A stretch of 64,000 nt of DNA from a virus (IMGVR_UViG_3300007513_000004:124001-188000), one strand, 5' to 3'; numbered from the stretch's first letter, positions 369 to 22,090 are shown. Notes: generated by a model from the sequence alone, not told the origin. Translations and numbers: made by a program.

Positions 369-1166
369 ATGAGGAAACTTATAAGCTACATTTTTTTACT
401 TTCAGTATTGATTTCTTTGGTCTATATTACTAAAGAAGTTATAAGTTTTTCAAAAAATATCATATCTTTAAAAGAGTATCAAACAGACGCTATAATAAAA
501 CAAGAAAAGATGCTACACCCAACCGTCAGGGTAATTAGCATGGAACGAACCTATGACAGCTCTGCCTCTGCAGACTCTGGCGATGTAGAGGTTGAGATTA
601 TACTGGCTACAGCCACCGGGTTTAGCATTCAATATGATGCAATAAATGATGTTTCTTTTGTAGTCACAAATGATCACTTCTGTAACTCAATAATGCCAAG
701 CTCATCTTTGGTAGTGGAAGACTATAATAAAAATTCATTAAATATTTCAGAAAATTATATAAGTTCAAAAATCTTATACACAGATGAAGGATTAGATCTT
801 TGCCTACTAGCAGCATATGGGTTTATAAAGCCGGCAATTATTGCAGATGTTGATTACACTCCAGAATTATTTGAAAAAGTTTTTGTAATCGGAGGACCGA
901 CCGGAAACTTTCCAATTATAATAGATACCTATATTTCTGGCTCAAGCGACAGAAGAAGCATAACGGTTGGAAACTTAGATGCTTCTGGAAATGATTTTTT
1001 GCTTATTTCAGAACAAATATTCCCAGGACATAGCGGAAGCCCTATCTTTAACCAAGATGGAGAGGTTATTGGAGTAATTTTTGCAGCATTAGAAACATAT
1101 GGTGGTTTAGCGATATCTCATAGAGATATATTCATGTTATTATTCTATTATCAAAATAGTCTCTAA
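369..1166 (+). CDS. Membrane-anchored trypsin-like serine protease
   Basis: This 265-residue protein starts with a hydrophobic segment (about residues 4-22) after two basic residues. That fits an uncleaved membrane anchor or a signal peptide. The rest has the chymotrypsin/HtrA-type triad in order: His in TNDHFC (family consensus TNAH), Asp in GLDLCLL, and Ser in GHSGSPIFN. There is no PDZ domain after it, so it is shorter than DegP/HtrA. It probably acts in the periplasm or outside the membrane on host or virion proteins. It is the only plus-strand gene and ends exactly one base before the convergent neighbour, so it may be controlled separately. The triad makes peptidase fold and activity likely; the substrate is unknown. 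Confidence 0.8.
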   Translation: MRKLISYIFLLSVLISLVYITKEVISFSKNIISLKEYQTDAIIKQEKMLHPTVRVISMERTYDSSASADSGDVEVEIILATATGFSIQYDAINDVSFVVTNDHFCNSIMPSSSLVVEDYNKNSLNISENYISSKILYTDEGLDLCLLAAYGFIKPAIIADVDYTPELFEKVFVIGGPTGNFPIIIDTYISGSSDRRSITVGNLDASGNDFLLISEQIFPGHSGSPIFNQDGEVIGVIFAALETYGGLAISHRDIFMLLFYYQNSL

Positions 1167-5700: not shown

Positions 5701-5737
5701 AAAAAAAATCTTAGAGCCCCAACATGGAGGTCCTAAG
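5701..5737 (-). terminator. Rho-independent terminator after the sigma factor gene
   Basis: Read on the minus strand, an 11-pair stem (one mismatch, two G-T pairs) runs from CTTAG at 5737 to CTAAG ending at 5710, with a short loop, followed at once by a run of eight T. The stem includes the stop codon of the sigma factor gene. Its position suggests that the sigma/diadenylate cyclase transcript ends here, before the reductase gene. Confidence 0.8.
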
Positions 5738-6308
5738 ATAATATGGTTCTAAGCTTGTTTAGGCTGCAGTTTCTGATTTGTCTTATACGTTCTGTAGAAA
5801 GGTTAAATTTCGTTGCTATTTCATTTAGTCTTTTTCCGATAACTAAGTTGTCAATAACAATGTCTTTTTCTCTGTCGGATAAAATATTATTTTCATCAAT
5901 AAACATCTTTTTAAATATTATTTTCATCTCTAACTCAACCTCTTTTTCGTTTAAAACATTACCAAAATCACAGCTGCCTAATTCCTTTTTAATACCAGAT
6001 TTTGCAATCGAAAATCGTTTAGAATTTGAATTGTAATCTCTAAGTTTTTTTGAAATATTCCATTGCGCCCATCTGAAGAAATCAAAGTTTTTTTGATAAT
6101 CATATGTTAAGATTGCTTCCCACAATCCAATATAGGCTTCCTGAAATAGGTCTTCTTGAGAAGATATATTTTTATATTTTTTCGCTCTAGACTCTGCAAA
6201 GAATTTTGTCTGCACAAAAATATCGTGCATCCAATCCTTTGTATTCTTTTCTTCGTTTACGATATATGTCATTTTTATATCAAGATTAGATAAATCGTAA
6301 TAACTCAT
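5733..6308 (-). CDS. Sigma-70-family RNA polymerase sigma factor
   Basis: The 191-residue product has sigma region 2 at about residues 50-92 (DLFQEAYIGLWEAI, then FDFFRWAQWNI) and region 4 at about 142-190, ending in a helix-turn-helix with LNEIATKFNLSTERIRQIR. Region 1.1 and a clear region 3 are missing, so it is a compact alternative factor. It would redirect host RNA polymerase to a set of phage (perhaps late) or host promoters. It begins 3 bases after the diadenylate cyclase stop with GAGGAT upstream, so the two are co-translated. The transcript ends in a terminator that overlaps its stop codon. Family is clear; the promoters it reads are unknown. Confidence 0.88.
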   Translation of the reverse strand: MSYYDLSNLDIKMTYIVNEEKNTKDWMHDIFVQTKFFAESRAKKYKNISSQEDLFQEAYIGLWEAILTYDYQKNFDFFRWAQWNISKKLRDYNSNSKRFSIAKSGIKKELGSCDFGNVLNEKEVELEMKIIFKKMFIDENNILSDREKDIVIDNLVIGKRLNEIATKFNLSTERIRQIRNCSLNKLRTILS

Positions 6309-6311
6309 TCT

Positions 6312-6872
6312 TTATTCATCCTCAGGGTTGTACTGATCCACAAACTCTCCGTCTTTCCAAGTCCTAACTATAGAGGTTTCTTCTGACAAAGTAAAGACGG
6401 CAATAACATCATCTCTGGTCGAAAAAGATGCAGCACTTATGTGTCTAGTCCCACATCCCTCTGGAACTTCTAATGCCGGATTGTCAACAAGCAGATATAC
6501 TCTACCTCCTATAATTTGACCATTTCTATTGATAACAATAGCTCCATCGGCATCTTCTCTAAACAAAGCTTCTACGCTCTTCTTAGAAGAGGTTGTTGAA
6601 ATATCTATATATTTTTGAATTGGATTAATCCCAATTTGTCGCATACCCGATACAAGATAATCTTTTGCTGTATCAAATACGCCAAACACAACCAGTATTC
6701 CTAACTTCTTTTGCCTATCTTTGTTTTCTTTAGATATTTCACACAATATATTGAATATCTTCTTTCCGACCTTCTGATGCTCTCTCGCAGCACTGAATTG
6801 GAAAGAAAAGTCAGTAGACGTAACCCTTTTGGGCGGCTCTACTGAAGTTGCCTGAATTTCTTCTTTCGACAT
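6312..6872 (-). CDS. Diadenylate cyclase (DAC / DisA_N domain), c-di-AMP synthase
   Basis: The 186-residue product carries the DAC signature: LGILVVF strand, DGA at 109-111, GTRH at 141-144 and SEE at 163-165, in the order and spacing of DisA/CdaA catalytic domains. The expected reaction is two ATP to c-di-AMP. No membrane helices (as in CdaA) or DNA-binding HhH domain (as in DisA) are present, so it is a soluble stand-alone domain. One change is notable: the family motif GTRHR is GTRHI here. The start at 6872 is chosen over an ATG seven codons upstream because GGAG lies 6 bases before it. It is preceded by its own AT-rich promoter spacer and followed by the sigma factor. Fold is convincing; activity needs testing. 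Confidence 0.85.
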   Translation of the reverse strand: MSKEEIQATSVEPPKRVTSTDFSFQFSAAREHQKVGKKIFNILCEISKENKDRQKKLGILVVFGVFDTAKDYLVSGMRQIGINPIQKYIDISTTSSKKSVEALFREDADGAIVINRNGQIIGGRVYLLVDNPALEVPEGCGTRHISAASFSTRDDVIAVFTLSEETSIVRTWKDGEFVDQYNPEDE

Positions 6873-6893
6873 GTACGACTCCATGGTTTCCAT

Positions 6894-6965: not shown

Positions 6966-8348
6966 TTAACTAAAGCCTAATTCATCATATGTGTAGTGAA
7001 TAATGCGGGTCTCTGAATCGACCGTTTTTAAGTTTATTGGCCCACCCCAAACATCGTGGACATATCCCATAACCATTTCTAAATGTTTGACATCCAAAGT
7101 TCCAACATCTACACTGGCATGCTCCAACTGTAAAATTCCATCTTCAACGCCAACAATACAAATGAGAGGGGCTCTATAATTATAGAGATCTTTTATTATT
7201 GTTTCTTTGATAAAATCCAACTCTGTTCCAATTACCTCAATGGCGTCAATTCCATTTGCAGCCTTTATTTGCTTAAAGGAAAAAAGCTTAAGATCTTTTG
7301 CCAAATCTTCTGTTAAATAATTTCTTATAAAAGAGATATCATCTTCATCTGCAACTATTTGATATATTTTCTGAAAACCATTAATTTCAGATTCTCCATT
7401 TTTATGCTTTTCGTCCCATTCTTCTCGTATTTTTGTAAATATTGAAAAACCTAAAAAGTAAGGGTTTATATTAAGATGATTCGATCCTGGTTGAACTACT
7501 TTTTCATGAATTTTACAAAAGTCAAGATATTCATGCTCTTCAACACAGCCTAGTTTTAACATAATCTCCGCATGAACAAAGCTTGCAAATCCTTCATTCA
7601 TTATCTTGGTCATATATTGAGGATAAAAATAATAAGACTCTTGTCTTATTATCTCTAAAATATCTTTCTGCCAAGGCTCCAAGACTCTCGAATAATTAAC
7701 CAAAAACCAAATAATATCAAACTCTTGAGACGGTGGAAAACCACTTTCTGCAGGAACCTCTTTGTATGAAAAATCATGTGTTCCAAAAACATCATCAAAT
7801 TCATCAAAACTTGTTTTTTTAAAATGTTTTTCGCCCTTTTTATACCTAGCTCTATTTGGCCCTTTATGCCAATCTATATGTTTGTCTAAAGCAAATCCGA
7901 TGTCCATAACTTTTTCAACTGTTTCAATTCCATACTTTTGTATATACTCCTCTATCCTCTGAGCCCTCTCGGCTGCATGATATACCATCTTGTTATCAGT
8001 TTGTTTGAATAAAAAATTATTTTTAAAAAAGTGAACATGACCAACGACATGCGCTGATACCATGGTGTTTGCTATGTCTGAATTTGTATCCAACAAGAAT
8101 GCATAAGATGGGTCGTTATTAAGTACAACTTCATAAATCTTTGAAAAACCCATTTCTCCTTGCATTTTTTGATATTCATATGATTGCCCATAACTCCAGT
8201 GTCTAGCACGAGTAGGGAGGCCATAACTGATTACTTCTAACATTGTTTCTTGCGGAACAACCTCATAATTTATTGGATAATAATCCAACTCCATATCATC
8301 TGCTATTTGTTCAATTTCTACAACTCTGTCTTTCAATAACTGATTCAC
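6966..8348 (-). CDS. SpoVR/YcgB-family protein
   Basis: The 460-residue product matches the SpoVR family along its length: N-terminal part with DMELDYYP and Tyr/Trp-rich RHWSYGQSYE, the His-rich SAHVVGHVHFFKNN segment, and NEGFASFVHAEIM in the middle. The family is linked to cortex formation in Bacillus spores and is present as YcgB in enterobacteria that do not sporulate; its biochemistry is not established. Length is close to the bacterial proteins. It starts with GTG at 8346-8348, with AGAGG 6 bases upstream, one base after the YhbH-like stop. It is the last gene of the PrkA-YhbH-SpoVR set, in the same order often seen in bacteria. It appears complete. Confidence 0.92.
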   Translation of the reverse strand: MNQLLKDRVVEIEQIADDMELDYYPINYEVVPQETMLEVISYGLPTRARHWSYGQSYEYQKMQGEMGFSKIYEVVLNNDPSYAFLLDTNSDIANTMVSAHVVGHVHFFKNNFLFKQTDNKMVYHAAERAQRIEEYIQKYGIETVEKVMDIGFALDKHIDWHKGPNRARYKKGEKHFKKTSFDEFDDVFGTHDFSYKEVPAESGFPPSQEFDIIWFLVNYSRVLEPWQKDILEIIRQESYYFYPQYMTKIMNEGFASFVHAEIMLKLGCVEEHEYLDFCKIHEKVVQPGSNHLNINPYFLGFSIFTKIREEWDEKHKNGESEINGFQKIYQIVADEDDISFIRNYLTEDLAKDLKLFSFKQIKAANGIDAIEVIGTELDFIKETIIKDLYNYRAPLICIVGVEDGILQLEHASVDVGTLDVKHLEMVMGYVHDVWGGPINLKTVDSETRIIHYTYDELGFS

Positions 8349-8349
8349 A

Positions 8350-9543
8350 CTACACCTCTATCTGCTCTTTTGATCTGCTGTCAATATTGAAAAATGCCTT
8401 AAGAGCATCAAATACTTCTTCTCTAGACTTTATAACTATAGATACAAACCTAGTTCTCTTTATGTTTTTACTTAAAATTGACGAAAGCCTATTTTCTTCA
8501 TTCATCCACGGGCTAAAATCTCCATTTGGAGCTATTTCCCCATACCCAATAGCTCTAACCATTGGCAATAACTTTTTAACAAACTCTAAGGCACGCAAAT
8601 TATCCTCCCCCCAATTGTCACCATCACTAAATTCAAAAACATAATTATTCCAAGATGATGGGGGATGATTTGCCTGAATATGTTCATAAGCTAACTCAAA
8701 TGCCGTACTGCAAAGAGTTCCTCCAGAATTTGATACTTTAAAAAACTCCTGCTCATTAACTATAAACGCCCTTGCGTCGTGTGCAATAAATATTAACGAA
8801 ATATTTTTATATCTTCTCTTAAGAAACTGAACCATCCAAAAGTAAAAACTCTTTGCAATATAAGTCTTCTCTTGACTCATGGATCCGCTGCGATCCATCA
8901 TCAAGTAAACTGCCGCATTTGAATGATATTCTTTATTTGTTTCCCAATTTCTATATCTTAAATCATTTTCGTTAATTCCGCCAATCTTTGCATTGCCTTT
9001 TGCTGCATTTCTTTTTAAATTTTCAAAAAGAGTTTTCTTGATATCTATATTTGGAAATATACCCTTTTTCTCTATAGAGGATAAATCTTCAGTTTCCACT
9101 TCTATAGCCGAACTTTTATCTGGCTCCATCCAAGGGAGGTTTAGCTCTTCCAGCAAAATATCAACTATCTCATCGATAGTAACTTCTGCATCGAAAACTG
9201 CCTCACCCTCTTTGTCTCCAGGCTTATCTCCTTCGGGCTTCTTCTCGCCTCTTTTTCTAAGTCGAAACTTATCCCCAGGCTTGACATCAATCCCTTGACC
9301 AGTTTTGTCTTTATTTTTTAGCTTTCCATATTTAAACTTATATCTGTCTAAAAAACGTATAGGTATTTTAATCTTTTTATCACCATCTGATGTGATGATA
9401 TTATATTCCGTTATAAGGTCTTTGCCATTTTTTCTTATGGCATCATTTATAAGCTTCTTATGCCTATCGGAATCTCGCTTGCCCCTTTGCTTGAGCTTCC
9501 AGATATCCGATAAGCTTTTTTGCGCTTTCGGTGTATTGGACAT
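8350..9543 (-). CDS. YhbH/YeaH-family protein (DUF444) with VWA-like domain
   Basis: The 397-residue product has a charged, disordered N-terminal half (rich in Lys, Glu, Gly and Pro around 85-115). It then has a von Willebrand A-like domain from about 210 with the metal site DRSGSMS and a conserved SNSGGT segment. This is the DUF444 family (YhbH in Bacillus, YeaH in E. coli), known as the partner encoded next to PrkA kinase. VWA domains usually hold protein partners through a metal ion. The start ATG is preceded by AGAGG and lies one base after the PrkA stop, so translation is coupled. It appears complete, with its metal-binding residues intact. Confidence 0.92.
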   Translation of the reverse strand: MSNTPKAQKSLSDIWKLKQRGKRDSDRHKKLINDAIRKNGKDLITEYNIITSDGDKKIKIPIRFLDRYKFKYGKLKNKDKTGQGIDVKPGDKFRLRKRGEKKPEGDKPGDKEGEAVFDAEVTIDEIVDILLEELNLPWMEPDKSSAIEVETEDLSSIEKKGIFPNIDIKKTLFENLKRNAAKGNAKIGGINENDLRYRNWETNKEYHSNAAVYLMMDRSGSMSQEKTYIAKSFYFWMVQFLKRRYKNISLIFIAHDARAFIVNEQEFFKVSNSGGTLCSTAFELAYEHIQANHPPSSWNNYVFEFSDGDNWGEDNLRALEFVKKLLPMVRAIGYGEIAPNGDFSPWMNEENRLSSILSKNIKRTRFVSIVIKSREEVFDALKAFFNIDSRSKEQIEV

Positions 9544-9544
9544 C

Positions 9545-11464
9545 TCAGCCTCTTGCCATTAACGAGCTTACATACCTTAATAATTTGTTTGCACTTGTTG
9601 CTGTATAATTATACTTTTCGCACAAAGTATTAATTACAACATTTATTCTCTTAAGCTCTTCCTCGTCTGGATTTCTTGCGCTTACAGTTAAACGGATAAC
9701 GTCTTGTCTTTCATCGAAGAGTTGTCTCTCAAGCGCTTCACGTAACTTTGGATGATTTTTATAGTTATAAGCTCCATCGCCAGATTTTGCAGATCTTAAC
9801 ATCTTTCTGTATATCTCTTGTCTAAAAGATTTCTTGCCGGACTCCGTAATTCCAACCTTCTCCTCAATGGATCTCATCAGTCTTTCGTTTGGCTCAACAT
9901 AATCTCCCCACTCATCTTCAATCGTTGTTCCATCAAGAGATGCGCCAACATGGTCCATATAATTATTAAGAAGACTTTGAACCTCTTCTTCAAAATTAAC
10001 GAAGAATGCTTTTTGAACTTCATTTCTTGCAATTTTGCTATACTCCTCTATAACTGAGGTTAATATATTTTCAAGCTTCTCTATGGCTTTGGGGTCTAAT
10101 TTTGGATTACTTGCAAATCCGTCTCTAATAGATCTTATTATATCAACTGGAGTAATGCAGTTTGCGCCATCTTCGGCCAAAGTTGATGAAATCCTATTTA
10201 TAATATATCTTGGAGATATTCCCGTCATGCCTTCTGAATCAAATTCTTTTCTAAGAAGGGGAACGTCTGATTGTGAAAAACCCTCAACCTCTTCTTCGTT
10301 GTATAAGCGCATTTTGCTCATTACGGATAAGCCTTCATGCTTTGAATCTTTAAGCCTAGAAAGTACAGCAAACATAGCTGCGCAATAAAGAGTATATGGC
10401 GCTATATGCACACCCTCAAAGGTTGCTTGGCCTATTAACTTTTCATATATCTTAACTTCTTCATTTACACTTAAATTATATGGAATCTTTATGACAATAA
10501 TTCTATCGTGCAAAGCTTCCATCTCGTCTTTGGCTAAAAATCTTTTATATTCTGTTTCATTTGTATGTGCTAGTAAAAATTCATCTGCATAAATGAAGGG
10601 ATAGCGTCCTGTTTTTATATTCTTTTCTTGAGCCAGTGTTAGTAAGACATATAAGAATTTTTGATCAACCTTTAACATCTCAACAAATTCCATAAGCCCT
10701 CTGTTGGCTATGTTCAACTCTCCATCAAACCTATACGCCCTCGGGTCTGACTCTGAACCAAATTCTCCAATTTTACTCAAGTCCATTGACCCGACAAGCT
10801 CTGAAATGTCTTGGCTTTTCTTATCCGATGGAACGAAGGTGCCTATCCCAACTCTTGACTGTTCAGAAAAACACACCCTGCTTACAGGTAGCTCTAAAAA
10901 GTCTCCATCATGATTCTCTTTCAGCATCAACTCCATATAGGGGCTTAATTGGCCATCTATTTTGATCCCATAATCACTCAAAAACTGACCTCTCAATTTA
11001 TGCGGAATCGCACAAAGAGGGTCTTCAAACATTGGAGAATCTTTTAGACAATATACTGTTCCATCGTCTGTTCTGGTAAACTCTTCAAGCCCTCTCTTTA
11101 GCAATACGGCCAATTGAGATTTTCCAGATGATGTAGGTCCATACAAAAGAAGTATTCTTCTAGAAACTTCGCTCCCTGCTGCAGCGGCTCGTAAGTATGA
11201 CATTATTTCGCCAATTGATTCATTAATTCCAAATAAATCATTTGCAAAGAAAGAATATTCTTCAATATCTCCATCCTCACCCCTTACAATTCCAGCACTC
11301 TCAATCATCCTTAAGGTTCTTGAGTGCGCATTCATATGAATCTCTGGCTTCTTAATAACAAGATTAATATAATCTCGAAGAGTGCCCTCCCACTTCAAAG
11401 ACGTTGTCTCCTCTATGTGTTCATCTAAGGACTTAAAGAGTTTTGTAGTATTCTTTTTTGGCAT
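9545..11464 (-). CDS. prkA: PrkA/YeaG-family serine protein kinase
   Basis: The 639-residue product is close to the size of bacterial PrkA. It starts with the PrkA AAA-type ATPase region: Walker A GPTSSGKS near residue 110 and ADEFLLAHTNE near 300. The C-terminal section, from about residue 440, holds the kinase-like part. In Bacillus PrkA acts in sporulation and in E. coli YeaG acts in stationary-phase and nitrogen-stress responses; kinase activity has been reported, and an ATP-dependent protease role has also been proposed. Its ATG overlaps the stop of the upstream zinc-ribbon gene (TAATG), with GGAG upstream. YhbH- and SpoVR-like genes follow without a gap. No truncation is seen. Confidence 0.93.
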   Translation of the reverse strand: MPKKNTTKLFKSLDEHIEETTSLKWEGTLRDYINLVIKKPEIHMNAHSRTLRMIESAGIVRGEDGDIEEYSFFANDLFGINESIGEIMSYLRAAAAGSEVSRRILLLYGPTSSGKSQLAVLLKRGLEEFTRTDDGTVYCLKDSPMFEDPLCAIPHKLRGQFLSDYGIKIDGQLSPYMELMLKENHDGDFLELPVSRVCFSEQSRVGIGTFVPSDKKSQDISELVGSMDLSKIGEFGSESDPRAYRFDGELNIANRGLMEFVEMLKVDQKFLYVLLTLAQEKNIKTGRYPFIYADEFLLAHTNETEYKRFLAKDEMEALHDRIIVIKIPYNLSVNEEVKIYEKLIGQATFEGVHIAPYTLYCAAMFAVLSRLKDSKHEGLSVMSKMRLYNEEEVEGFSQSDVPLLRKEFDSEGMTGISPRYIINRISSTLAEDGANCITPVDIIRSIRDGFASNPKLDPKAIEKLENILTSVIEEYSKIARNEVQKAFFVNFEEEVQSLLNNYMDHVGASLDGTTIEDEWGDYVEPNERLMRSIEEKVGITESGKKSFRQEIYRKMLRSAKSGDGAYNYKNHPKLREALERQLFDERQDVIRLTVSARNPDEEELKRINVVINTLCEKYNYTATSANKLLRYVSSLMARG

Positions 11465-11754
11465 TATAAGGTTTCTCCATATACATCTAATATAGCTTTT
11501 GTATCACCTAACTTTATTTTATTAACAATCTTTCTAGCTTCTTCTTTGGCATCAGCCAATATTTCTTCTTTACCCTTTGATATCTTACTAGATGAAGAAT
11601 TAAATATTCTAATAAATTTAGATACAGTATCACATTTTTTACATTTTTGATCATATAACACATCTTTATTCTCTAAAGATAAATAATCTGATATAGACAT
11701 AGTTATAGACTCCTCCGTATCACACTTTCCACATTTAAAATTATACTTAGCCAT
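11464..11754 (-). CDS. Zinc-ribbon protein, 96 aa
   Basis: Two CxxC knuckles (CGKC near residue 8 and CKKC near 38) at the N-terminus form a likely zinc ribbon resembling the FmdB/CxxC regulatory type. A Lys/Glu-rich helix follows. Such proteins often bind nucleic acid or act as small regulators, but the role here is unknown. The ATG has AGG 9 bases upstream and overlaps the end of the preceding small gene by 8 bases. Its stop overlaps the PrkA start, so it belongs to the transcript that makes the PrkA set. Confidence 0.65.
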   Translation of the reverse strand: MAKYNFKCGKCDTEESITMSISDYLSLENKDVLYDQKCKKCDTVSKFIRIFNSSSSKISKGKEEILADAKEEARKIVNKIKLGDTKAILDVYGETL

Positions 11755-12273: not shown

Positions 12274-13630
12274 TCTCGTCTCCAAACTCTTCTGCCCAAT
12301 CATCTGGAAACTTCTCAATGCGAGATTTATCAAAAGCTTTCTTTAAAGACACCTTACCTTTTGCCCCGTCTCTATTCTTAACTATATGAATCTCCATATC
12401 CTCTCTCAAGTCTTCATCTTCTCTATTTCCAATTATCAAAACAATAGCAGCATTATCACCAATCATTTTGCTTCTACCAAGATCCTCCAAGCTAACATCA
12501 TCCATCCGCTTTCCGCTTGTCTTTTTTTGAGCAGCCTTTCTTTGGGCCGCCGTAACTACCGGCAAATCTTTCTTTCTGCAAAATTCATGCAATTCTTCAG
12601 AAACCTTACCGACATCCAGCCAATCTGTATTGGACCTTCCAAGGGTTGGTTTCATTAACTGCAGATAATCAATAAATATAGCATCAGGCTTAAATACTCC
12701 AAGTATAGTTTCATACTTAGCCTCGATCTCACCCATTGTTGTTCCGCGAGGCATATCAAGTATGTAAAACTTCTTATCGTGGCCTTCTTGGAACTTTAAA
12801 CACCTACCCCACCTATCCTCTTCTTCGCTGGTCAGCTGGGCTCTCACTAGGCCTCTGTGCCTAATATTAGCAATGTTTGCATCAACCCGTTGTTCCAATT
12901 GTTCTTTGCTCATTTCAAGAGAGATAAACAATATATTTTTACCATCATCATATCCGGTCACGCCATCAGACGGTATATTGCTACCAAGCCAAGCATTGAC
13001 CGCTATATTCATCATCAACAAAGACTTGCCCGATGAACTAGCTCCTCCGATAACTAACATTTCAGAATTTTTAACACCCCAGGTATAGTCGTCAAGCTCT
13101 TGATATCCCGATAGAAAGCCCATAATTTGATCAGGATTCTCAGCTGTATATTTATACTGATTAACCCTGTCCGCAACAGACTCTGTTATGTCTCCTTCTG
13201 AAAACACATCTCTTCTGTATAGCCTTTCCGTCTTTGAGATGATCTTCTTAAGCTCATCGTTAAACTCCTTTACATCTTCATCCTCTTCTTCAATTTCTGA
13301 TGCCTTTTGAGCAAGACTTTCTATTAAATATTTATTATATCGTTCCTTTATTTCATCTACATAAAATCCTATTTCATTTTTTAAACATTCTTTATTAAGA
13401 ATAAAGTCTGCAAGATCTGAATTGCCACCCTCTTTGTCTAACAAGGACTTTAAAACCTTATAAGATGGTGGGGTCTTGTGTCTAGAGTAATATGTGTGCA
13501 AAACATCTAGTATTTCTTTATATTTTGGAAAAAATATAGACCTTAAAAGATCATATTCCACTTCTCTATAAATTTCATTTATATTTATAGAGCCTTGCAT
13601 CATCCAATTGATTATTTTTGCATCAAGCAT
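12263..13630 (-). CDS. DnaB-like replicative helicase
   Basis: The 455-residue product has an N-terminal helical domain (about 1-130) and a RecA-like C-terminal domain with Walker A GGASSSGKS, the ILFISLEMS segment, FIDYLQLM (Walker B) and SLEDLGRSKMIGDNA. This is the layout of the hexameric helicase that unwinds the phage fork. The start at 13630 is used because AGGAG lies 5 bases upstream; an upstream ATG at 13657 lies within the loader gene and lacks such a site. Its start overlaps the loader gene by 8 bases, as expected for a helicase made together with its loader. Confidence 0.92.
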   Translation of the reverse strand: MLDAKIINWMMQGSININEIYREVEYDLLRSIFFPKYKEILDVLHTYYSRHKTPPSYKVLKSLLDKEGGNSDLADFILNKECLKNEIGFYVDEIKERYNKYLIESLAQKASEIEEEDEDVKEFNDELKKIISKTERLYRRDVFSEGDITESVADRVNQYKYTAENPDQIMGFLSGYQELDDYTWGVKNSEMLVIGGASSSGKSLLMMNIAVNAWLGSNIPSDGVTGYDDGKNILFISLEMSKEQLEQRVDANIANIRHRGLVRAQLTSEEEDRWGRCLKFQEGHDKKFYILDMPRGTTMGEIEAKYETILGVFKPDAIFIDYLQLMKPTLGRSNTDWLDVGKVSEELHEFCRKKDLPVVTAAQRKAAQKKTSGKRMDDVSLEDLGRSKMIGDNAAIVLIIGNREDEDLREDMEIHIVKNRDGAKGKVSLKKAFDKSRIEKFPDDWAEEFGDENDI

Positions 13631-14300
13631 TCTTTCTCCTAAAATCCTTTCCGCCAATTACGAACAACTCCACATGATGACTTCTCAAAGATTTGAATGA
13701 TTTAGCAAAAAACCCTCCAAATATTTGGTCTACATCTTCATCATTAGAACAAAGAATGGTTGGAAGTTGGTTTTGAAATCTTGTACGCAAAACATATTCT
13801 AAAGAAGAGCCAAAAATCTGCTCAGCTTTATCGGATGGAAAAATCCAATGTGAACTAAATTCATCAATTACTAAAAAATCTTTATTTAATAATTCACTAT
13901 AATACTTAGCAGTATCTAGCTCTTTAGATAGCATATTGGCAACCACATCGGCCATTGTGGTGTAAAGCCCAGAGTAACCAGATGCAACAGCTCTTTTTAA
14001 CACACAACATGCCGTATAGGTCTTTCCCGTTCCAAGGCCGCCTGTGAACATAAATGATTTTCCACTATCATATAAATTATTTATGTTTTCTATTTTTGTT
14101 TTTACAAACTTCTTAAAGTTCGGATCACCTGCAAAGTCTTTGAAGGACAATTCCCAATATTCCACAGGAATATTTGACAAAGCATATCTGTCAAGCCTGG
14201 ATGCTTTGGACGAGCATGTGCCACAGCCCATACCGTCACAAGCCTTGCAAGACTCTTTTACCTTCTGCTTTACTCTGTCAATCTTAGTCTTTGGTATCAT
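13623..14300 (-). CDS. DnaC/DnaI-like helicase loader (AAA+ ATPase)
   Basis: The 225-residue product has a small N-terminal Cys cluster (CKACDGMGCGTC, about 19-30) that may bind zinc. An AAA+ domain follows with Walker A GGLGTGKT and Walker B FLVIDEF. This combination is typical of DnaC/DnaI-type proteins that place the replicative helicase on DNA. It overlaps the Sm-like gene upstream by 17 bases and the helicase downstream by 8 bases, which supports the functional pairing. The ribosome-binding site is weak, so it probably depends on translational coupling. Confidence 0.88.
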   Translation of the reverse strand: MIPKTKIDRVKQKVKESCKACDGMGCGTCSSKASRLDRYALSNIPVEYWELSFKDFAGDPNFKKFVKTKIENINNLYDSGKSFMFTGGLGTGKTYTACCVLKRAVASGYSGLYTTMADVVANMLSKELDTAKYYSELLNKDFLVIDEFSSHWIFPSDKAEQIFGSSLEYVLRTRFQNQLPTILCSNDEDVDQIFGGFFAKSFKSLRSHHVELFVIGGKDFRRKNA

Positions 14301-14754
14301 CTTCGCTTACTTTGAAATTTATACTTGTTTTATTTAAAGGCTCAATATCAGCCCCTGATTCATCAGATGAGGGTAAGGCATTTCCACCTGCAAAAAATAC
14401 AGACAAATCATTATCTTCCTCTTCTGGTATATTGCTTAATAACGCCCCCGGTATAGACATACTGGACTCATCATAAGATATGCTATTCATGGGGAAAGTG
14501 TCAGAAACAGAGTTGCCTCGCCTGCTTTCACCTGCCCTTTCAGAAGAGGAAGAGGCCGCCGCAAGCGGCATAGTCCTAGCGCTTTCTGACAGCAACAAAC
14601 AAGCGACCTTTTCCTTAAATACCATAAACAGATTTCCATCCTGCTCAACAGTAAACCTATTATCCTCAAAAGATTTTACTTCGCCCGTTATTTGCCACCC
14701 ACCATCTAAAAATAATGTAACAGTTTTTCCGACCAAACTTTCTTTACTATTCAT
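14284..14754 (-). CDS. Protein with N-terminal Sm/Hfq-like domain
   Basis: The first 55 of 156 residues follow the Sm fold pattern: VGKTVTLFLDGGWQITGEV (strands 1-2 with the Sm-type Gly), SFEDNRFTVEQ (strands 3-4) and LFMVFKEKVACL (strand 5), much like Hfq's xLxxGxxxxGxxxxxD and YKHAI positions. The remaining 100 residues are Ser/Glu-rich and look disordered. If it forms a ring it could bind RNA or single-stranded DNA. A GGAG site precedes the ATG, which overlaps the upstream stop as ATGA. The replication context favours a nucleic-acid role, but the assignment rests on pattern only. Confidence 0.55.
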   Translation of the reverse strand: MNSKESLVGKTVTLFLDGGWQITGEVKSFEDNRFTVEQDGNLFMVFKEKVACLLLSESARTMPLAAASSSSERAGESRRGNSVSDTFPMNSISYDESSMSIPGALLSNIPEEEDNDLSVFFAGGNALPSSDESGADIEPLNKTSINFKVSEDDTKD

Positions 14755-15350
14755 ATTAACTCCAATTCCTTAGCTTTATCTAAAAATAAAAATTCTGTAG
14801 AACTATTAGATAAATTATAAAACTCATAATACTTCTTGACCATCTTAATATCCTCTACTTCCTCAACCTGATGAAGATCAAATATCTTGGGAACATTATC
14901 TTTAGACCAATTCAAAAGAGTATTCATCTTTGTCTTGTTGAGATTCTTCGAAAGATAAGAACTATACATTCTTTCAAACTCATTTATCATTGATGGCATT
15001 AAAAATATTTGAGTACCAGTTACAGATCTTTCCCCTCTTCTGAACTTATAATCAAACATCCAATTTATATAATTATAAATTTTTACAATTATCTCTTCTT
15101 TACTCTTCTTTTTTTCATCAGACGAAAGGTTGTCATACCCTTCTGGCGCAAGCACTTTAAATAATCTTGCAAAATCACGACTCTCCTTTCCCTTTCCCGG
15201 ATCACTCTTCCATCTAACAAGTCGAAATTTGACATCATTAGCTTTTTCATACTTATGACAGAAATATGCCATAAGGGTTATGTGATTCCATCGACTTTTA
15301 TCTTGGGAAATCCAATCTGAAATTTTTTGATAAAATTCATCCTGAGTCAT
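14751..15350 (-). CDS. Hypothetical protein in the replication block, 199 aa
   Basis: No family is recognised. The product is mainly helical and rich in Lys, Tyr and Trp (for example IYNYINWMFDYKFRRGE), which would suit a nucleic-acid or protein-binding role. A strong GGAGG site lies 9 bases before the ATG. It is the first gene after the 68-base gap behind the SF2 helicase. It is coupled by an ATGA overlap to the Sm-like gene and, through it, to the helicase loader. Confidence 0.6.
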   Translation of the reverse strand: MTQDEFYQKISDWISQDKSRWNHITLMAYFCHKYEKANDVKFRLVRWKSDPGKGKESRDFARLFKVLAPEGYDNLSSDEKKKSKEEIIVKIYNYINWMFDYKFRRGERSVTGTQIFLMPSMINEFERMYSSYLSKNLNKTKMNTLLNWSKDNVPKIFDLHQVEEVEDIKMVKKYYEFYNLSNSSTEFLFLDKAKELELI

Positions 15351-15418
15351 GATAAATCGCCTCCATGTAAATGGTACCTCTGCTATACAAACTTAACTAT
15401 TCAAATAAAAATATTATA

Positions 15419-16939
15419 TCAAGCCCAATCAATAGGCTTTCTTTTTGGATACGAATGCAAAACTTTATTCTTTGGCATCTTTATGTTAAACCCCGGCTCG
15501 CTCCTATAAACCTTAATTCGAGCCTCAGAATGATCTCTTAAATATTTACAATTATCAAAAAACTCAACAACTATTGCTTTCTTTTTTCCAGGAGCCTTTC
15601 TTATAACTCGACCGATTCTTTGCAACGCTCTTCCGCTTGATTTGCCAGAACCGGCCAAAATTAAGGCATCAAGCTCTGGTATATCAATTCCTTGATCAAA
15701 TATCTTTGAAGCAATCAAAACTTGAATTTTACCATCCCGCACTTCCTGTATTCCTTCAAGCCTATTTTTTGAGCTTTTTGCTCCATCCAAAAATTTAACA
15801 GAATATTCATCCCCTATCATTTTCTGCAAATCCTTTCCATGCTGCACTCTTACTACTAAGATTAATACCTTCTTTCCAGCATCTACCAGTTTTTTAGTGG
15901 CCTTTAAAATTAAATTATTTCTATCTTCATTCTCAACTATATAATTCTTATAAACTTCGTGATAATTTTTTCCAACGTTCCTCATCACAGGAACGTTTAT
16001 AAAATGAATATCAGGAGGCACCAAGTAATCCAAAGATATTAACTTTGTTGCATTAACATCGCAAAATTTTGGACCAGAAACGGCCTCTATCAGAATATCA
16101 TCACCCGTATCCCTCCATGGCGTTCCAGAAAGCAAAAACCTATGTCTCGCAGATACACTTGCCCGGTGAATAAACTGAAGAGTTTCAGATGCAGCATACT
16201 GACATTCATCAAAAATGAATAATTGAGCATTTTGAACCTTTTCTCTCACAATTCTTTTATTTAATATCTTTATTTGTGAAGAAGAATCTTGGGTTGTATC
16301 GTTATCTGCAATTTTCGCCTTTTTATTAAAAGCTGCTGCAGCAGACCAAATCGTCATAATAGTTACAGGCTTCGATATATCACACTCTCCCCCACCTACT
16401 ATGCCGCACTCTATTCCATATGCCTCTTCTAATGTTTTCTTCATTTGATGAAGTAATTCAATTCCAATAACATATATTACAGTTGGAATATTATACTTTG
16501 CAGCAATAGATGCTATTATTAGGCTTTTTCCGCCGCCTGTAGCAACCTTTATTATTCCGCTACCAGCTTCTCTGGCAGATTTGACGACACTCTTTTGATA
16601 AGGTCGTAACTTAAACTCTTTATTCTTAAGAGGAAGCTCTTTGCCATACTCAATAGATGGCCGAGCATCTATAACTTCATATGCAATATTGTTGACTTTA
16701 AGCAAATCTTCAGCAATACTTAACAAGCCAATTGGAAAACGCATGGTCTTAGATAGCAACCTGATCTTGCCGTCCCAACCTCCGTATTTTCCATGAAGAC
16801 CATAGCCGCCCTTTCCTCCCTTCATAAACATATATCCGGGATGATCATAGCTCATAAGCTTATCAAGTTTTGATAAAACCTTAGGATCTAATGGTCCATC
16901 TATTTTACAATTTACATTATCTATAATAATTCTAATCAT
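15419..16939 (-). CDS. Superfamily 2 DNA helicase, UvsW-like
   Basis: The 506-residue product has the SF2 motifs in order: RPYQKSVV (Q-like), Walker A ATGGGKS, DECQ box in IFDECQYAAS, LSGTPWR (motif III), ASKIFDQGIDIPELDA (motif V) and QRIGRVIRK (motif VI). An N-terminal domain of about 110 residues precedes the core, as in T4 UvsW, which remodels forks and recombination intermediates. The ATG at 16937-16939 is preferred; a TTG four codons upstream is possible, and neither has a strong ribosome-binding site. A sigma-70-type promoter lies about 40 bases upstream. The gene heads the replication transcript. Confidence 0.9.
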   Translation of the reverse strand: MIRIIIDNVNCKIDGPLDPKVLSKLDKLMSYDHPGYMFMKGGKGGYGLHGKYGGWDGKIRLLSKTMRFPIGLLSIAEDLLKVNNIAYEVIDARPSIEYGKELPLKNKEFKLRPYQKSVVKSAREAGSGIIKVATGGGKSLIIASIAAKYNIPTVIYVIGIELLHQMKKTLEEAYGIECGIVGGGECDISKPVTIMTIWSAAAAFNKKAKIADNDTTQDSSSQIKILNKRIVREKVQNAQLFIFDECQYAASETLQFIHRASVSARHRFLLSGTPWRDTGDDILIEAVSGPKFCDVNATKLISLDYLVPPDIHFINVPVMRNVGKNYHEVYKNYIVENEDRNNLILKATKKLVDAGKKVLILVVRVQHGKDLQKMIGDEYSVKFLDGAKSSKNRLEGIQEVRDGKIQVLIASKIFDQGIDIPELDALILAGSGKSSGRALQRIGRVIRKAPGKKKAIVVEFFDNCKYLRDHSEARIKVYRSEPGFNIKMPKNKVLHSYPKRKPIDWA

Positions 16940-17025: not shown

Positions 17026-17964
17026 TTACTTATCGCTACAGAATAAACTTTGACTGACTTCGCCAAGAAGCCCTGGCATGTCCATCCCTGCACAATCTAT
17101 CTTTGTTCTTACAAAGTTATAATGATTAGAGAAGCCTTCAAAACTGCCATCTTCGCAGCCGCTATGCACAGTGGTGCATAATGTGCCATCAGAATTTTGC
17201 GGATATTCTAATGGAATTCCAAGCCCTAAATGAACAGCTTTCCACAAAGCTTTTAGGGCTTCAATTTGGACAGGATAAAACCACATAAAAGGTTTTTGTG
17301 TTTTTCCATGCACCTGTCCATTCTCTTGCAATGGTCTTTCACCAAACCCATTTTCAACGTACCAGTCCTGGTACTTTGGATAATAAGCATTGCTTATCTC
17401 TATGCCAATACTTTTTTTATTTCCATGGTATTTGCTGCAATGCCACGCCCCATGTTGCGTATCTAATAGTTGATATATTGTTCCATCATTGTCTAAACAA
17501 AAATGGACTGATATTCCCCTTCTATTCAATATATTTGCACATGTTTCTGCAGACAAACATACATCCCAATGATTAACAAACATAGAAGGCTCTCTATCTG
17601 GCTTTCCGGAGTTATCATAATACTTTCCAGGGGTTATAGCCAAACCATCCGGCTCGTCCCATAAAACCACCTGGGGCCAATCAATTGGCAAAAACTTACC
17701 ATTATGGACAATAAAATTACTTTCATTATTTAATGTAGATCTTTTCTTTGGTTTATAATTTGATATCTCGACTTGCCTTTCGGTCCATATCCTCCTATAG
17801 GTCATTGGACCGACAAGCCCATCTGCCGTTACCTTGTGGGCTCTTTGCCACTTTTTAACTTTGTTTACCAAATCTTCATCAAAATGTTCAGCGCCAAACC
17901 AACTAGGGCTCCACCCCAACTTTAATGAGCTAGATTCATTATAGAAGTCTTTGTCCACAGCCAC
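17026..17964 (-). CDS. Endolysin: N-acetylmuramoyl-L-alanine amidase with peptidoglycan-binding domain
   Basis: The 312-residue product starts with a peptidoglycan-binding domain of the PG_binding_1 type (about 12-62; VKKWQRAHKVTADGLVGPMTY). An Amidase_2 domain follows (about 120-305). Likely zinc ligands are His in VNHWDV, His in FSNHYNF and Cys in TKIDCAG, as in T7 lysozyme. It would cut the bond between muramic acid and the stem peptide to release progeny. It starts with GTG, overlapping the stop of the GTPase gene by one base, with GGAGG before it. No holin is recognisable beside it. There is no signal peptide, so it would need a holin or similar. Confidence 0.92.
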   Translation of the reverse strand: MAVDKDFYNESSSLKLGWSPSWFGAEHFDEDLVNKVKKWQRAHKVTADGLVGPMTYRRIWTERQVEISNYKPKKRSTLNNESNFIVHNGKFLPIDWPQVVLWDEPDGLAITPGKYYDNSGKPDREPSMFVNHWDVCLSAETCANILNRRGISVHFCLDNDGTIYQLLDTQHGAWHCSKYHGNKKSIGIEISNAYYPKYQDWYVENGFGERPLQENGQVHGKTQKPFMWFYPVQIEALKALWKAVHLGLGIPLEYPQNSDGTLCTTVHSGCEDGSFEGFSNHYNFVRTKIDCAGMDMPGLLGEVSQSLFCSDK

Positions 17965-20438
17965 TACTTCCTCCTTCTCCTATCTATTATAGAAGCCCTA
18001 CCACTTTTTGACCCCTTTTGAAGTCTATTAAAGCCAGACTTTTTCTTTCTGATCTTTCTATTAACTTCTTCAGAAACGGCATTAACCTTATCCTCTCCCA
18101 AGTCTAAAGTCATAGCAACATCTCTATTCTTTTCTTTTTGAGAAGCTATTACCGCTTGTTGCTGACTTTCCTTCTTTAAATTATCAATCCTATCCCTAGG
18201 AAGCCCAAGGCCGGCGAACCAACTATATATCTTAATTGAATCCGAATCAGAATCTACATTGTAAACGCCCTGATAAATAGGAGCTCCGTTTGTTTGCTCT
18301 GAAATCATATGAAAACAATAATTTATGTTTATAGCAGGCAGCTTCTCCAGCACTTCTTTGGATCCGGCAACTATAACTCCGCCAGCTCTTGTTTGCGTTA
18401 AGTCAAAACCAGAAGCAAGCATGTTGGAGTTTAGGCTGTCAATCACAGCCTCTGCTAGTGCCGTTTCTTCCATATAATCTTCAACCTCCATAACCCCATA
18501 TATAGAACAATCTCCACAAGAAATAATCTTACCAAAGTCGCTTGGGTCTAAAGCTGTAAACCTGGAGGGCTTAGCCGTAAGGGTGTTGAAAATATGAAGA
18601 GGCTCTACAATTGCATTATTTGCAGCCTCCCAAAACTTAGATTGACTAAGGTTTGCATAAATCTGCTCAATTCTTGCATTATCAACAACAATTAAATTTG
18701 AAACAATATTATCTGCGGTAAGCCTTGCCAGCCTAGAGAGAGTCTCTATAGAATTCTTCTTAGATTGAGCATCCTCTGTAGCTTTCGGCAAAACATATAT
18801 AACCCCGACCGGAGTGCCCGTTTCAAATAACATTGGAATCAATGTATCAACAGAGCTTGATCCAGTACCTCCGCCACCAGAGACGGCCAAATATACCATA
18901 TGATTTCCTTCAATTACTCGATCAAACAAGGGCTGCATCAAATCAACACTTTCTGCAAAAATTTCACGACCTAAGTCCAAGTCCTTACCAGTGCCTCCAA
19001 GGCTTCCTTCTAACAAAAGCTTTTGGCTGCCTGGAACATCAATAAATTCAAGATCTTGAGCCGAAGTGTTAACCACAGCTACATCATATCCTTTTTGGTG
19101 AAATACCTCTGCCAGCCTAGACCCTGCTTGTCCAACGCCTATAATGGCCAGCTCTATACTGACACCTCTTGTGTTTACAACCACAGGCATATCTTCCTCC
19201 TTCTTCTTTTGCATTTTTTCACGCAACCTTTCAAGAACATCTTCTTCCTGTCCATCATCTTTGGCCTCAAGAAGGGGTTCTGTTAAATCCTCCAAAACTT
19301 GGTCCGCTTCACCCGCTCCAAAAGCAGCCATCAGCGCCTCATTGTCTTGGTCAATATTTTTTTGAGATTTTTCTTTTCGTTTAATCTCAATTTCTTTTAC
19401 TTCATTTTTACTCATTATAAAATCCTCATAATATCTATTAAGTTGCTCTAATATCTTTTTTCTATTTGTAGTCGCAAACGGAACATGTGTTTCATTTTTA
19501 TTATACGAAATTACTTCACAAAGGTATTCGGAATGTTTATTCATAGGGTCTGCATCAACTGTGATTATGTCACAGTTCATAGCTTTTGCCTCATAAAAGC
19601 TTAACCCAAGCCCCTCCCTGGTAGAGGGGGCGATAACACAGTGTGATTTATCATATAATTTTACTATATCCTCTCTCTTCAAAACATCATTTATTAGTAT
19701 TATATTCTTACACTTTTTTGCTATATTAGACTCGTCCTCAGTTAATCTCCCGCTAACCAACAATGTGGCATCTGATTTGGACATTCTGGAAAAATCTGAA
19801 AACGCTTCTAACGTTTGAATTGTATTTTTCTGATTAAAACCTGAATTTACAGGCCCAGGATGATAAAATGATAATTTTTCTAGATCACCCTTATTTGCCT
19901 TAGGGACAAATAAAGCTCTGTCTACATAATCCCAAGATACTTGTTTTTTATTTTTATATTTTCTAAATATATTATAAGAAGTTTCCGTAAGACACCAAAC
20001 TTGATCAAAAATACTATATGAATTACTTTGAACAAACCTTTTATTTATCCACTCAGGCATTGGTACGTCAATAATCTTTATTCCAGTTTTTGCCTTAATA
20101 TTCGAAACCCACTGCCCCTTCATCATAAAAGTTTCAAAAGAAATAATTATATCAATATCATTATCCCTCACAAGCCTTAAAAGCTGCTTCTCTACAGTTT
20201 TTTCCTTTGATAGAACATGAAAAGAAACATCAGATAATAAACTTTCATCATATGGTTCAGGATAATGACGCCTAAATGTGCCGCCAAGGGCCTCTTTCTT
20301 ATATTTTGCTTTTGAAACATAAGAAACTTCATTATTCTCACTAAGAATATCCCCAAGAGACTTTGCCAAATACCAGAGTCCAGATTCAGAAAGATATGTT
20401 TTTATCAAAATCTTTTTATTCTTTATTTTATTTATCAT
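17964..20438 (-). CDS. Fusion ORF: glycosyltransferase (GT-B) plus FtsZ/tubulin-like GTPase
   Basis: A single 824-codon frame holds two unrelated proteins. Residues 1-341 are a GT4-like glycosyltransferase (STREGLGLSFYEAKAMNC, the E-x7-E nucleotide-sugar site). Residues from about 430 are a tubulin/FtsZ-family GTPase: GVGQAG (T1 loop), the signature GGGGTGSSS at 521-529 (T4 loop), and ALDPSDFG, which keeps the catalytic D-x2-D of the T7 loop. The 342-417 stretch is charged and probably coiled or disordered; the C-terminal tail is very basic (DRRRRK). PhuZ-like filaments position DNA in jumbo phages, so a similar role is plausible. A good ribosome-binding site before Met342 suggests that a free GTPase is also made. 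Domain identities are firm; the fused product is uncertain. Confidence 0.85.
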   Translation of the reverse strand: MINKIKNKKILIKTYLSESGLWYLAKSLGDILSENNEVSYVSKAKYKKEALGGTFRRHYPEPYDESLLSDVSFHVLSKEKTVEKQLLRLVRDNDIDIIISFETFMMKGQWVSNIKAKTGIKIIDVPMPEWINKRFVQSNSYSIFDQVWCLTETSYNIFRKYKNKKQVSWDYVDRALFVPKANKGDLEKLSFYHPGPVNSGFNQKNTIQTLEAFSDFSRMSKSDATLLVSGRLTEDESNIAKKCKNIILINDVLKREDIVKLYDKSHCVIAPSTREGLGLSFYEAKAMNCDIITVDADPMNKHSEYLCEVISYNKNETHVPFATTNRKKILEQLNRYYEDFIMSKNEVKEIEIKRKEKSQKNIDQDNEALMAAFGAGEADQVLEDLTEPLLEAKDDGQEEDVLERLREKMQKKKEEDMPVVVNTRGVSIELAIIGVGQAGSRLAEVFHQKGYDVAVVNTSAQDLEFIDVPGSQKLLLEGSLGGTGKDLDLGREIFAESVDLMQPLFDRVIEGNHMVYLAVSGGGGTGSSSVDTLIPMLFETGTPVGVIYVLPKATEDAQSKKNSIETLSRLARLTADNIVSNLIVVDNARIEQIYANLSQSKFWEAANNAIVEPLHIFNTLTAKPSRFTALDPSDFGKIISCGDCSIYGVMEVEDYMEETALAEAVIDSLNSNMLASGFDLTQTRAGGVIVAGSKEVLEKLPAININYCFHMISEQTNGAPIYQGVYNVDSDSDSIKIYSWFAGLGLPRDRIDNLKKESQQQAVIASQKEKNRDVAMTLDLGEDKVNAVSEEVNRKIRKKKSGFNRLQKGSKSGRASIIDRRRRK
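19413..19427 (-). promoter_or_regulatory. Internal ribosome-binding site and ATG for the FtsZ/tubulin-like part
   Basis: GAGGAT (19422-19427) stands 6 bases before an in-frame ATG (19413-19415), which is codon 342 of the fusion ORF. The ATG falls exactly between the end of the glycosyltransferase domain and the start of the charged linker. This would give a separate GTPase of 483 residues from the same message. Confidence 0.7.
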
Positions 20439-21144
20439 ATACTAGTTTGCCACCAAGCCTTTCTTTTGAGGCCTTTTTTATATCTTCTATATTTTGTTCG
20501 AGCTCCTTCTTTCGATCCTTCTGCTGAGTCAAAGAGCCTCCTCTTGGAATTACAGAATAATAATACAAAATTTGATGAATATATTCTATAGGATATTGCT
20601 CAGAAATCCTCAGCCACATGTCGTAGTCTTCTGCAATCCAAAGATCTTCATTAAAAAGACCAACGTCATTTAAAACAGCTCTCTTAATTGTGGTAGATCC
20701 TGATGCTACAAAATTTTGAGTCATAAGAGCAGAATGGTCTATCCTTATAGGTCTTTTATAAAAAGGCTTTTTAAGACGAACTCTATTTAATAAAATTTGA
20801 TAATTTCCACAAGTCATGCCTATATCTGGCCTTTCTTTAAACGCATCTATAGATAATTTTAACTTGTGCCTATTCATTATATCATCTGCATCCAAAAGAC
20901 TGACAAGATCTCCGCTTGTTGCTCTAATGCCAACATTTCTTGACGCTCCAGGCCCAATGTTCTTTTCATTTCTTATATATTTAACAGTAGGAAATCTCCT
21001 CAATAACTTTTTAACATCCTCTGTTGAATTATCATCAACAACTGTAACTGTATACTTTTTATATTCCTGAGAAAAGCAGCTTCTAATTGCTTGCGTAAGA
21101 AATTTTCCAGGATTATAGGCTGGAATGATAATGTCAACCAACAT
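20428..21144 (-). CDS. Family 2 glycosyltransferase (GT-A)
   Basis: The 238-residue product has the standard GT2 start VDIIIPAYNPG, then VVDDNSTED and the DxD metal site in LLDADD near residue 86, followed by EDYDMWLRI near the acceptor side. It transfers a sugar from a nucleotide-sugar donor to a growing glycan or protein. It overlaps both neighbours by 11 bases, so it belongs to the glycan cluster transcript that continues into the glycosyltransferase-GTPase fusion. Donor and acceptor cannot be read from sequence. Confidence 0.88.
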   Translation of the reverse strand: MLVDIIIPAYNPGKFLTQAIRSCFSQEYKKYTVTVVDDNSTEDVKKLLRRFPTVKYIRNEKNIGPGASRNVGIRATSGDLVSLLDADDIMNRHKLKLSIDAFKERPDIGMTCGNYQILLNRVRLKKPFYKRPIRIDHSALMTQNFVASGSTTIKRAVLNDVGLFNEDLWIAEDYDMWLRISEQYPIEYIHQILYYYSVIPRGGSLTQQKDRKKELEQNIEDIKKASKERLGGKLVYDK

Positions 21145-22090
21145 CTTTCAAAATCCTTAAATACTGCTCTACAATCAACCTAGGATTAAAACTTTCAAGC
21201 ATATACTGTCTAGCTCCTAAAGATAAATCTTTTCTTAATTCAGAATTTTCCATTATTTCCGATATTGCTTCACAATATGAGTCTACGTCTCTACTTATAA
21301 TAATCCCTGTTCTATAATTCTCTCCATGCAGATAAACTTGTGGATGAGTAACAGAGGGGACTCCGGCAGACCACTGTTCCATAAGGGCGGTTCCTTTGGT
21401 CTCGCTCAAAGAAGTGCAAATATAAAGATAGGCCTTCTTCGCCTCTTCAATATGAGTTTTGTAGTTATATGGTCTACCATCTCCCAAAAATAAGAACTCA
21501 TATTGTTTTAAATTATTTTTTATTTTTTTAGCAAACTCAATATCTTTAACCATATGCCGCGAATTTCCTTTCCACAAAATGTACTTGCCATACCTATCTG
21601 GCGGAGACCACAAATCAACATCTGGGCCAACCATAAAGCTCTCAAGCTTGTCTATCGGCAGTGCGTGCTTATTGGATATAAGATATCTTAACCTATCATT
21701 AACAGTTAATATCTTTTGATATTCTATTTTCTTCAAAAAAGCCTTCTCTTGCTTATACTCTACTGTATCAAGCAAGTTTGGACCTAAAATAACTGGCTTT
21801 TTATAAGTATTTGCAAGCTGAATTATTGTTAAAAACGTATTTACCAAGCCACTCCAGCAGTGGAATGCCTTGCACTCTCTTATATCATTTAATAAATCTG
21901 TTGCATGTCTTGTTGTTTTTAGTTGAACATTTGGAATGTCCGAAAAAGACTCCAAATGTGTATAAATAGACAATTGTACTTTTGGCAAATATTTAGAAAC
22001 AAATTTTGCAAAATTAAGCAAGTCCATACCAGGACCATTTACAATGCCATTAGATATACCTATATTGAATGCTAGTATAACAACTTTCAT
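21134..22090 (-). CDS. Family 4 glycosyltransferase (GT-B)
   Basis: The 318-residue product has GT-B features: the N-terminal domain with KVVILAFNIG and GIVNGPGMD, and a C-terminal nucleotide-sugar site with SLSETKGTALMEQWSAGVPSV, where the E-x7-E pattern is partly kept. AAGGA lies 6 bases before the ATG. A 55-base AT-rich gap separates it from the LysM/HExxH gene upstream. It would add one sugar in the cluster's glycan. The donor is unknown. Confidence 0.82.
   Translation of the reverse strand: MKVVILAFNIGISNGIVNGPGMDLLNFAKFVSKYLPKVQLSIYTHLESFSDIPNVQLKTTRHATDLLNDIRECKAFHCWSGLVNTFLTIIQLANTYKKPVILGPNLLDTVEYKQEKAFLKKIEYQKILTVNDRLRYLISNKHALPIDKLESFMVGPDVDLWSPPDRYGKYILWKGNSRHMVKDIEFAKKIKNNLKQYEFLFLGDGRPYNYKTHIEEAKKAYLYICTSLSETKGTALMEQWSAGVPSVTHPQVYLHGENYRTGIIISRDVDSYCEAISEIMENSELRKDLSLGARQYMLESFNPRLIVEQYLRILKDVG

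Follow-up and report, generated by a model that had tools for sequence, protein, structure and literature searches.

A four-gene PrkA-DUF444-SpoVR-DAC locus in a lineage of jumbo phages

PrkA, YhbH and SpoVR are common in bacteria, and their biochemical role is still unsettled. E. coli has the same three families in yeaG-yeaH with ycgB, and in this non-sporulating bacterium yeaG and yeaH cooperate under starvation (PMC4664914). The PrkA of B. anthracis, when fully purified, is a clade III AAA+ ATPase in which neither kinase nor protease activity could be detected; it is needed for sporulation and for ionic-osmotic tolerance (PMC13001217); kinase activity in vitro was earlier reported for E. 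coli YeaG, as cited in PMC4664914. The triad is already on record in huge phages and, for a long time, in the Thermus phages phiYS40, TMA, phiLo, MN1 and Lalka. In the Ralstonia jumbo phage RsoM2USA at least two of the genes, those for SpoVR and PrkA, lie close together and have proteobacterial best matches (PMC8504454), and spoVR has been recorded in viromes of marine oxygen-minimum zones (PMC8940887). Other jumbo phages carry pairs of a MoxR AAA+ protein and a vWA(-metallopeptidase) protein (PMC7824862).

The window analysed here, a stretch of 64,000 nucleotides (IMGVR_UViG_3300007513_000004:124001-188000), carries full-length domains of the three families in the gene order of the nearest bacterial prkA-yhbH-spoVR loci. 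Unlike those loci, it continues downstream with genes for a DAC-domain protein and a sigma factor (Table 1), and its PrkA belongs to a separate clade. It differs from RsoM2USA in its best matches, and from the Thermus phages in that the latter have the order DUF444-SpoVR-PrkA and a separate PrkA branch. A preliminary description of the window had reported an intact triad joined by 1-base gaps. Coordinates, order and strand proved correct: the Pfam matches of all three proteins are nearly full length and far beyond chance, the core motifs were verified by alignment, and the spacers, at 9544 and 8349, are 1 nt each. The GTG start of the SpoVR gene is preceded by an AGAGG-like ribosome site, and the zinc-ribbon gene upstream, a neighbour conserved in the clade by synteny, overlaps the start of prkA by 1 nt. 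What had been missed is that the conserved unit extends downstream of SpoVR into the DAC-domain gene.

Table 1. Coordinates of the features discussed; intein sites follow the residue numbering of the window's proteins
Feature	Record	Coordinates	Strand	Length	Matches or site
Trypsin-like protease	Window	369-1166	+
Small sigma-70-like factor, regions 2 and 4	Window	5733-6308	-	191 aa	Pfam Sigma70_r2, r4
DAC-domain protein	Window	6312-6893	-	193 aa	Pfam DAC 1.1e-13
SpoVR family	Window	6966-8348	-	460 aa	Pfam SpoVR 1.6e-108
DUF444/YhbH, VWA domain	Window	8350-9543	-	397 aa	Pfam DUF444 4.5e-87
PrkA-family AAA+ protein	Window	9545-11464	-	639 aa	Pfam AAA_PrkA 2.4e-112, PrkA_C 9.9e-70
Small zinc-ribbon protein	Window	11464-11754	-		weak Pfam Zn_ribbon_8, PHROG 385
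Glycosyltransferase-tubulin/FtsZ fusion	Window	17964-20438	-	824 aa	GTPase domain 430-594
Several glycosyltransferase genes	Window	20428-22090, 32882-37624	-
Intein-bearing ORF	L003	14893-17502			SpoVR 255/256
Intein-bearing ORF	L006				SpoVR 255/256
Intein-bearing ORF	L011				SpoVR 255/256
Intein-bearing ORF	L041	13032-15737			SpoVR 255/256
Intein-bearing ORF	L171 (Myxococcales contig)	13173-15995			SpoVR 255/256
Intein-bearing ORF	L008	13904-16477			SpoVR 100/101
Intein-bearing ORFs	L015	8039-11068, 12258-14744			in this record, SpoVR 104/105 and PrkA 300/301
Intein-bearing ORF	L053 (second phage group)	12426-15041			DUF444 272/273
DHH-DHHA1 phosphoesterase	L201	833-1687

The PrkA protein has Walker A and, over its full length, both family domains (PF08298 and PF06798), and is a relative of the solved structure 9xip (E 1.4e-126). 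Walker A, GPTSSGKS, occupies residues 109-116, with G109, K115 and S116 invariant in the alignment of relatives, and there is a sensor-like motif, H300-x-N302-x-x-E305. The MIDAS of the DUF444 protein is complete and likewise invariant among relatives (D217-x-S219-x-S221, T276 and D307); the NCBIfam YhbH model gives 8e-114, which is under that model's cut-off. SpoVR matches PF04293 over its full length and keeps the HxxxH and NEGxA motifs, its C-terminal domain PF24755 scoring under cut-off (22.9 vs 27.6 bits). H100-x3-H104 and E252, invariant across 43 aligned sequences, form a putative metal site. The AlphaFold2 model of SpoVR, built from an alignment that left out sequences from the phage collection, reached a pLDDT of 88.7 and had no significant match among PDB folds; scattered hits to zinc peptidases were all non-significant and are not counted as evidence. 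The set resembles the MoxR/vWA pairs in having an AAA+ motor, a VWA partner and a possible metal-dependent part. The analogy is one of parts only: the AAA+ protein is of the PrkA type and lies outside MoxR, the VWA protein is DUF444, and SpoVR, a protein on its own, lacks an HExxH motif.

The record from which the window comes is 223,402 bp long and encodes a contractile tail (tail sheath, baseplate and tail fibres). The same DNA is found in IMGVR_UViG_3300008954_003475 (221,878 bases): the stretch compared, at about 120.3-145.5 kb of the window's record and with the triad locus in it, shows 100% identity, and one more gene sits where colinearity predicts. If the two records stay colinear throughout, the virus has at least about 341 kb; its largest relatives have 316-395 kb, and it is a jumbo phage. 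Elsewhere in the window, a gene for a trypsin-like protease with a hydrophobic N-terminus runs in the direction opposed to that of almost every other gene. An ORF combining an N-terminal group 1 glycosyltransferase with a tubulin/FtsZ GTPase domain is matched over almost its full length in several relatives, and the glycosyltransferase genes of the window suggest a surface-sugar or DNA-glycosylation module.

Scans of IMG/VR yielded 12 further distinct viruses with a PrkA 65-77% identical to that of the window, and all 12 keep the order PrkA-DUF444-SpoVR wherever the contig extends far enough; no bacterial PrkA found comes closer than 57% identity. In a tree of 86 PrkA sequences, made by a quick search with SH-aLRT support only, the group forms a single clade (support 99, or 100 when L041 and L049, two outgroup phages, are included). 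Its sisters come from three MAG contigs on which the neighbouring genes are those of an ordinary chromosome. The Thermus phages, one huge phage and a second large IMG/VR group are placed on other branches, so phages have acquired the triad several times. Exact positions in this tree are unsure owing to long branches (L024, L026, L027 and L029). The dN of PrkA and DUF444 is about that of DnaB in the same phages, PrkA being slightly lower (0.075-0.19, against 0.09-0.225 for DnaB; dS mostly saturated). The earlier expectations that the triad is under selection, and that it recurs in related large phages as a clade of its own, thus agree with the dN values and conserved order and with the relatives and tree.

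Several relatives of the window's genes have oversized SpoVR, PrkA or DUF444 ORFs, which are continuous frames containing inteins, as called from terminal splicing motifs in NCBIfam: TIGR01443 was matched in all three proteins, and TIGR01445 in SpoVR and, under cut-off, in DUF444. All five insertion sites lie no more than 3 residues from an invariant residue. Inteins typically sit at conserved sites of functionally important proteins, and because of this preference H100, H104, NEGxA, the PrkA sensor motif and the MIDAS threonine can be regarded as core residues. We found no open-access paper that mentions SpoVR together with inteins, and by eye none is apparent in the SpoVR of phiLo (617 aa). 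Insertions are also present in the ribonucleotide reductase and UvsW genes of relatives.

The same DNA in a second record and the gene order kept in related phages show that the locus did not arise by misassembly. A chimeric contig, which the preliminary description had raised as a mixture of bacterial and phage contigs, was rejected on the identity of the triad in the two records; its other reservation, that homologues in further phages might always be broken, fails on the related phages, where order and constraint are kept and the oversized ORFs are inteins rather than disruptions. That the locus is a recent capture, a set of decayed genes or a chimera has next to no likelihood: its sole point is that the nearest sisters of the phage PrkA clade are bacterial, and against it stand the second record, a 13-phage clade with conserved order, purifying selection, and reading frames that continue through the inteins.

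Of the 13 distinct phages that make up the clade, 12 have the DAC-domain gene next to the triad, as does L049 from the outgroup; L040, the sole clade member that lacks it, is a contig fragment. The sigma-70-like gene starts 3 nt after the DAC gene, and a relative of this gene follows DAC in L009, L012, L013, L017 and L049. The DAC protein consists of a low-confidence N-terminus, a helix (residues 29-59) and the DAC domain. Its AlphaFold2 model (pLDDT 74) has the DAC fold: Foldseek matches it to CdaA/DacA with probability 1.0 and TM 0.67 by target, with E 1e-7 for CdaA 6hvm. It scores below every curated NCBIfam cut-off, including that of DacZ (6.6e-16). No homologues were found in isolated phages, none was confirmed in 84,980 bacterial and archaeal genomes searched with a conserved peptide pattern, and none was found in eight records of other triad phages; the three Thermus phage genomes tested have no DAC. 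Eighty bacterial prkA loci, some on short contigs, had no DGA..GTRH motif. Since the family was not found outside triad-bearing phages, DAC looks like an addition to the triad.

The DAC fold and the DGA, TRH and SEE motifs are common to the phage protein and to DacZ, CdaS, CdaA and DisA. In the alignment D116 and G117 are invariant and A118 is nearly so, and the second motif reads G148-T149-R150-H151-I152. The phage protein differs from these enzymes in its length, in having its own N-terminus, and in RHI for RHR, a change seen in 11 of 11 clade members aligned (outgroup L049 has RHK). RHR is required for c-di-AMP synthesis by DisA- and CdaS-type enzymes, and neither DacA of M. tuberculosis nor CdaS of B. 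thuringiensis makes it once the motif is changed to AAA (PMC3328451, PMC4568413). The comparison set from haloarchaeal plasmids (L196-L200) includes two proteins annotated as DacZ with RHH and three annotated short DACs with RHM or KHL, so that loss of RHR alone is not disqualifying. The short haloarchaeal proteins are the most like the phage protein in the core, and two of three checked adjoin cation:proton antiporters; in the L196-L200 set as a whole, the neighbours of the short DAC genes are cation:proton antiporter or universal stress protein genes. The phage protein may either make c-di-AMP or, with the third residue of RHR gone, sense or bind an adenine nucleotide.

An altered RHI with DGA, TRH and SEE retained would also fit binding without catalysis, and the protein might then be the point of the cassette, a decoy or sponge for cyclic nucleotides with which the host signals against phages, while the triad next to it would be a separate matter. 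We regard this as very improbable: L040, L041 and every further triad phage tested have the triad but no DAC, and the RHH, RHM and KHL forms exist in annotated archaeal DACs. Large relatives (L201 to L205) encode a DHH-DHHA1 phosphoesterase followed by a conserved gene without assigned function; the similarity of the DHH-DHHA1 proteins to NrnA is only weak, and we do not claim them as c-di-AMP phosphodiesterases.

The preliminary description proposed that a viral triad would alter host protein phosphorylation or dormancy. Bacterial PrkA does affect sporulation, YeaG/YeaH act in starvation physiology (PMC13001217, PMC4664914), and viral spoVR has been read as promoting sporulation (PMC8940887). 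A specific role in phosphorylation is not sustained, given the lack of detectable kinase activity in purified B. anthracis PrkA (PMC13001217), and a common function in sporulation is unlikely, because E. coli, in which PrkA/YeaG acts, does not sporulate (PMC4664914). Moreover, the module is present in many phyla without known endospores, and both replication-gene neighbours here and a packaging-module site elsewhere are atypical for a sporulation switch. It is therefore improbable that these are auxiliary genes whose products phosphorylate host proteins and so drive the cell to sporulate or become dormant.

Pairs of an AAA+ protein and a VWA partner are known as remodelling machines, and the triad is best read as a working AAA+/vWA/SpoVR remodelling module rather than a sporulation kinase. 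The locus would then encode a functional form of the bacterial module that these phages inherit vertically, in which PrkA, to judge mostly from the protein families, would be an ATP-driven AAA+ ring, DUF444 may act through its VWA/MIDAS as the substrate-binding co-chaperone, by analogy with MoxR/RavA-VWA pairs, and SpoVR, with its His/His/Glu site, could be an effector or client controlled by the ring. In this lineage the DAC protein would supply c-di-AMP or nucleotide sensing to the triad, and the four proteins would most likely keep the infected cell stress-tolerant and under ionic and osmotic control through a long infection. The nearly full-length matches, the presence of all core motifs, the four-gene order in 12 phages, the PrkA clade, the dN values close to those of DnaB and inteins beside invariant residues support this explanation, as do the ionic-osmotic sensitivity of the prkA mutant and the antiporter-adjacent haloarchaeal DACs. 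Osmotic regulation is governed by c-di-AMP (PMC8573169), and CdaS offers a precedent in a soluble sporulation DAC (PMC4568413). RHI in place of RHR counts against it, as does a search of seven genomes for the TrkA_C (RCK_C) domain, a known type of c-di-AMP receptor, which found none.

The position of the triad in other phages also counts against it. In a second IMG/VR group (L050-L102; PrkA about 40% identical), SpoVR is followed on its own strand by TerL in 39 of the 43 contigs with enough sequence, the median gap being 108 nt and TerL being the very next gene in most contigs, and a portal or head protease gene lies upstream in 15 of the 18 having 9 kb there. The 43 do not represent independent events, since they are related by descent and in part almost duplicates of each other. 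In Thermus phage Lalka8 (L025) the order is portal, minor head protein, DUF444, SpoVR, PrkA, two small genes and TerL, and in phiYS40 the triad is 1-2 kb from TerL. The TerL proteins of these two phages and the Lalka8 portal gave no phmmer match at 1e-5 to the L050-L102 group. The placement between portal or head protease and terminase in two unrelated lineages suggests a role in head assembly or packaging. PrkA, a VWA co-chaperone and SpoVR might accordingly form a virion-assembly machine, acting on head proteins by remodelling or processing or assisting in the setting-up of the motor for packaging, host-stress effects being a side issue; an AAA+/vWA pair with a metallopeptidase domain has already been proposed to serve virion assembly in jumbo phages (PMC7824862). 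However, bacteria employ the same module without virions, the contigs of a single group are not independent, and in the window's lineage the triad lies amid DnaB, DnaC, UvsW, sigma, RNR and PhoH genes. A home-made profile found no TerL in the window's own record; the best candidate, a weak Pfam match in the overlapping record, is about 115 kb from the triad, and the best candidates in G001 and G004 are distant too. We consider virion assembly possible yet rather unlikely. For the window's lineage we favour, on account of the DAC partner and the gene neighbourhood, control of the ionic and stress state of the infected cell by the four-gene module, tentatively and as something just short of an even prospect.

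The preliminary description knew of no described phage role. The novelty that this implies is too strong for the triad itself, whose presence in phages is known. The DAC-linked four-gene unit is apparently new. That unit, the inteins of the triad and the packaging-module site were absent from the literature searched, which was mostly open-access with few subscription papers; the PrkA-DUF444-SpoVR-DAC set and the packaging-module sites in other phages thus appear new as far as we searched. We advance with considerable doubt the wider view that a jumbo lineage joins the remodelling machine to a DAC-family enzyme or sensor, a c-di-AMP-type control undescribed in phages as far as searched, and that unrelated phages house the same machine in the head-packaging module. 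If it is true, the long-unexplained PrkA-YhbH-SpoVR system could be approached as a phage assembly or infection machine. Phages that keep the triad under strong selection are small, tractable test systems, and the Thermus phages are culturable. A phage DAC-family protein would widen cyclic-dinucleotide biology to phage counter-signalling or takeover.
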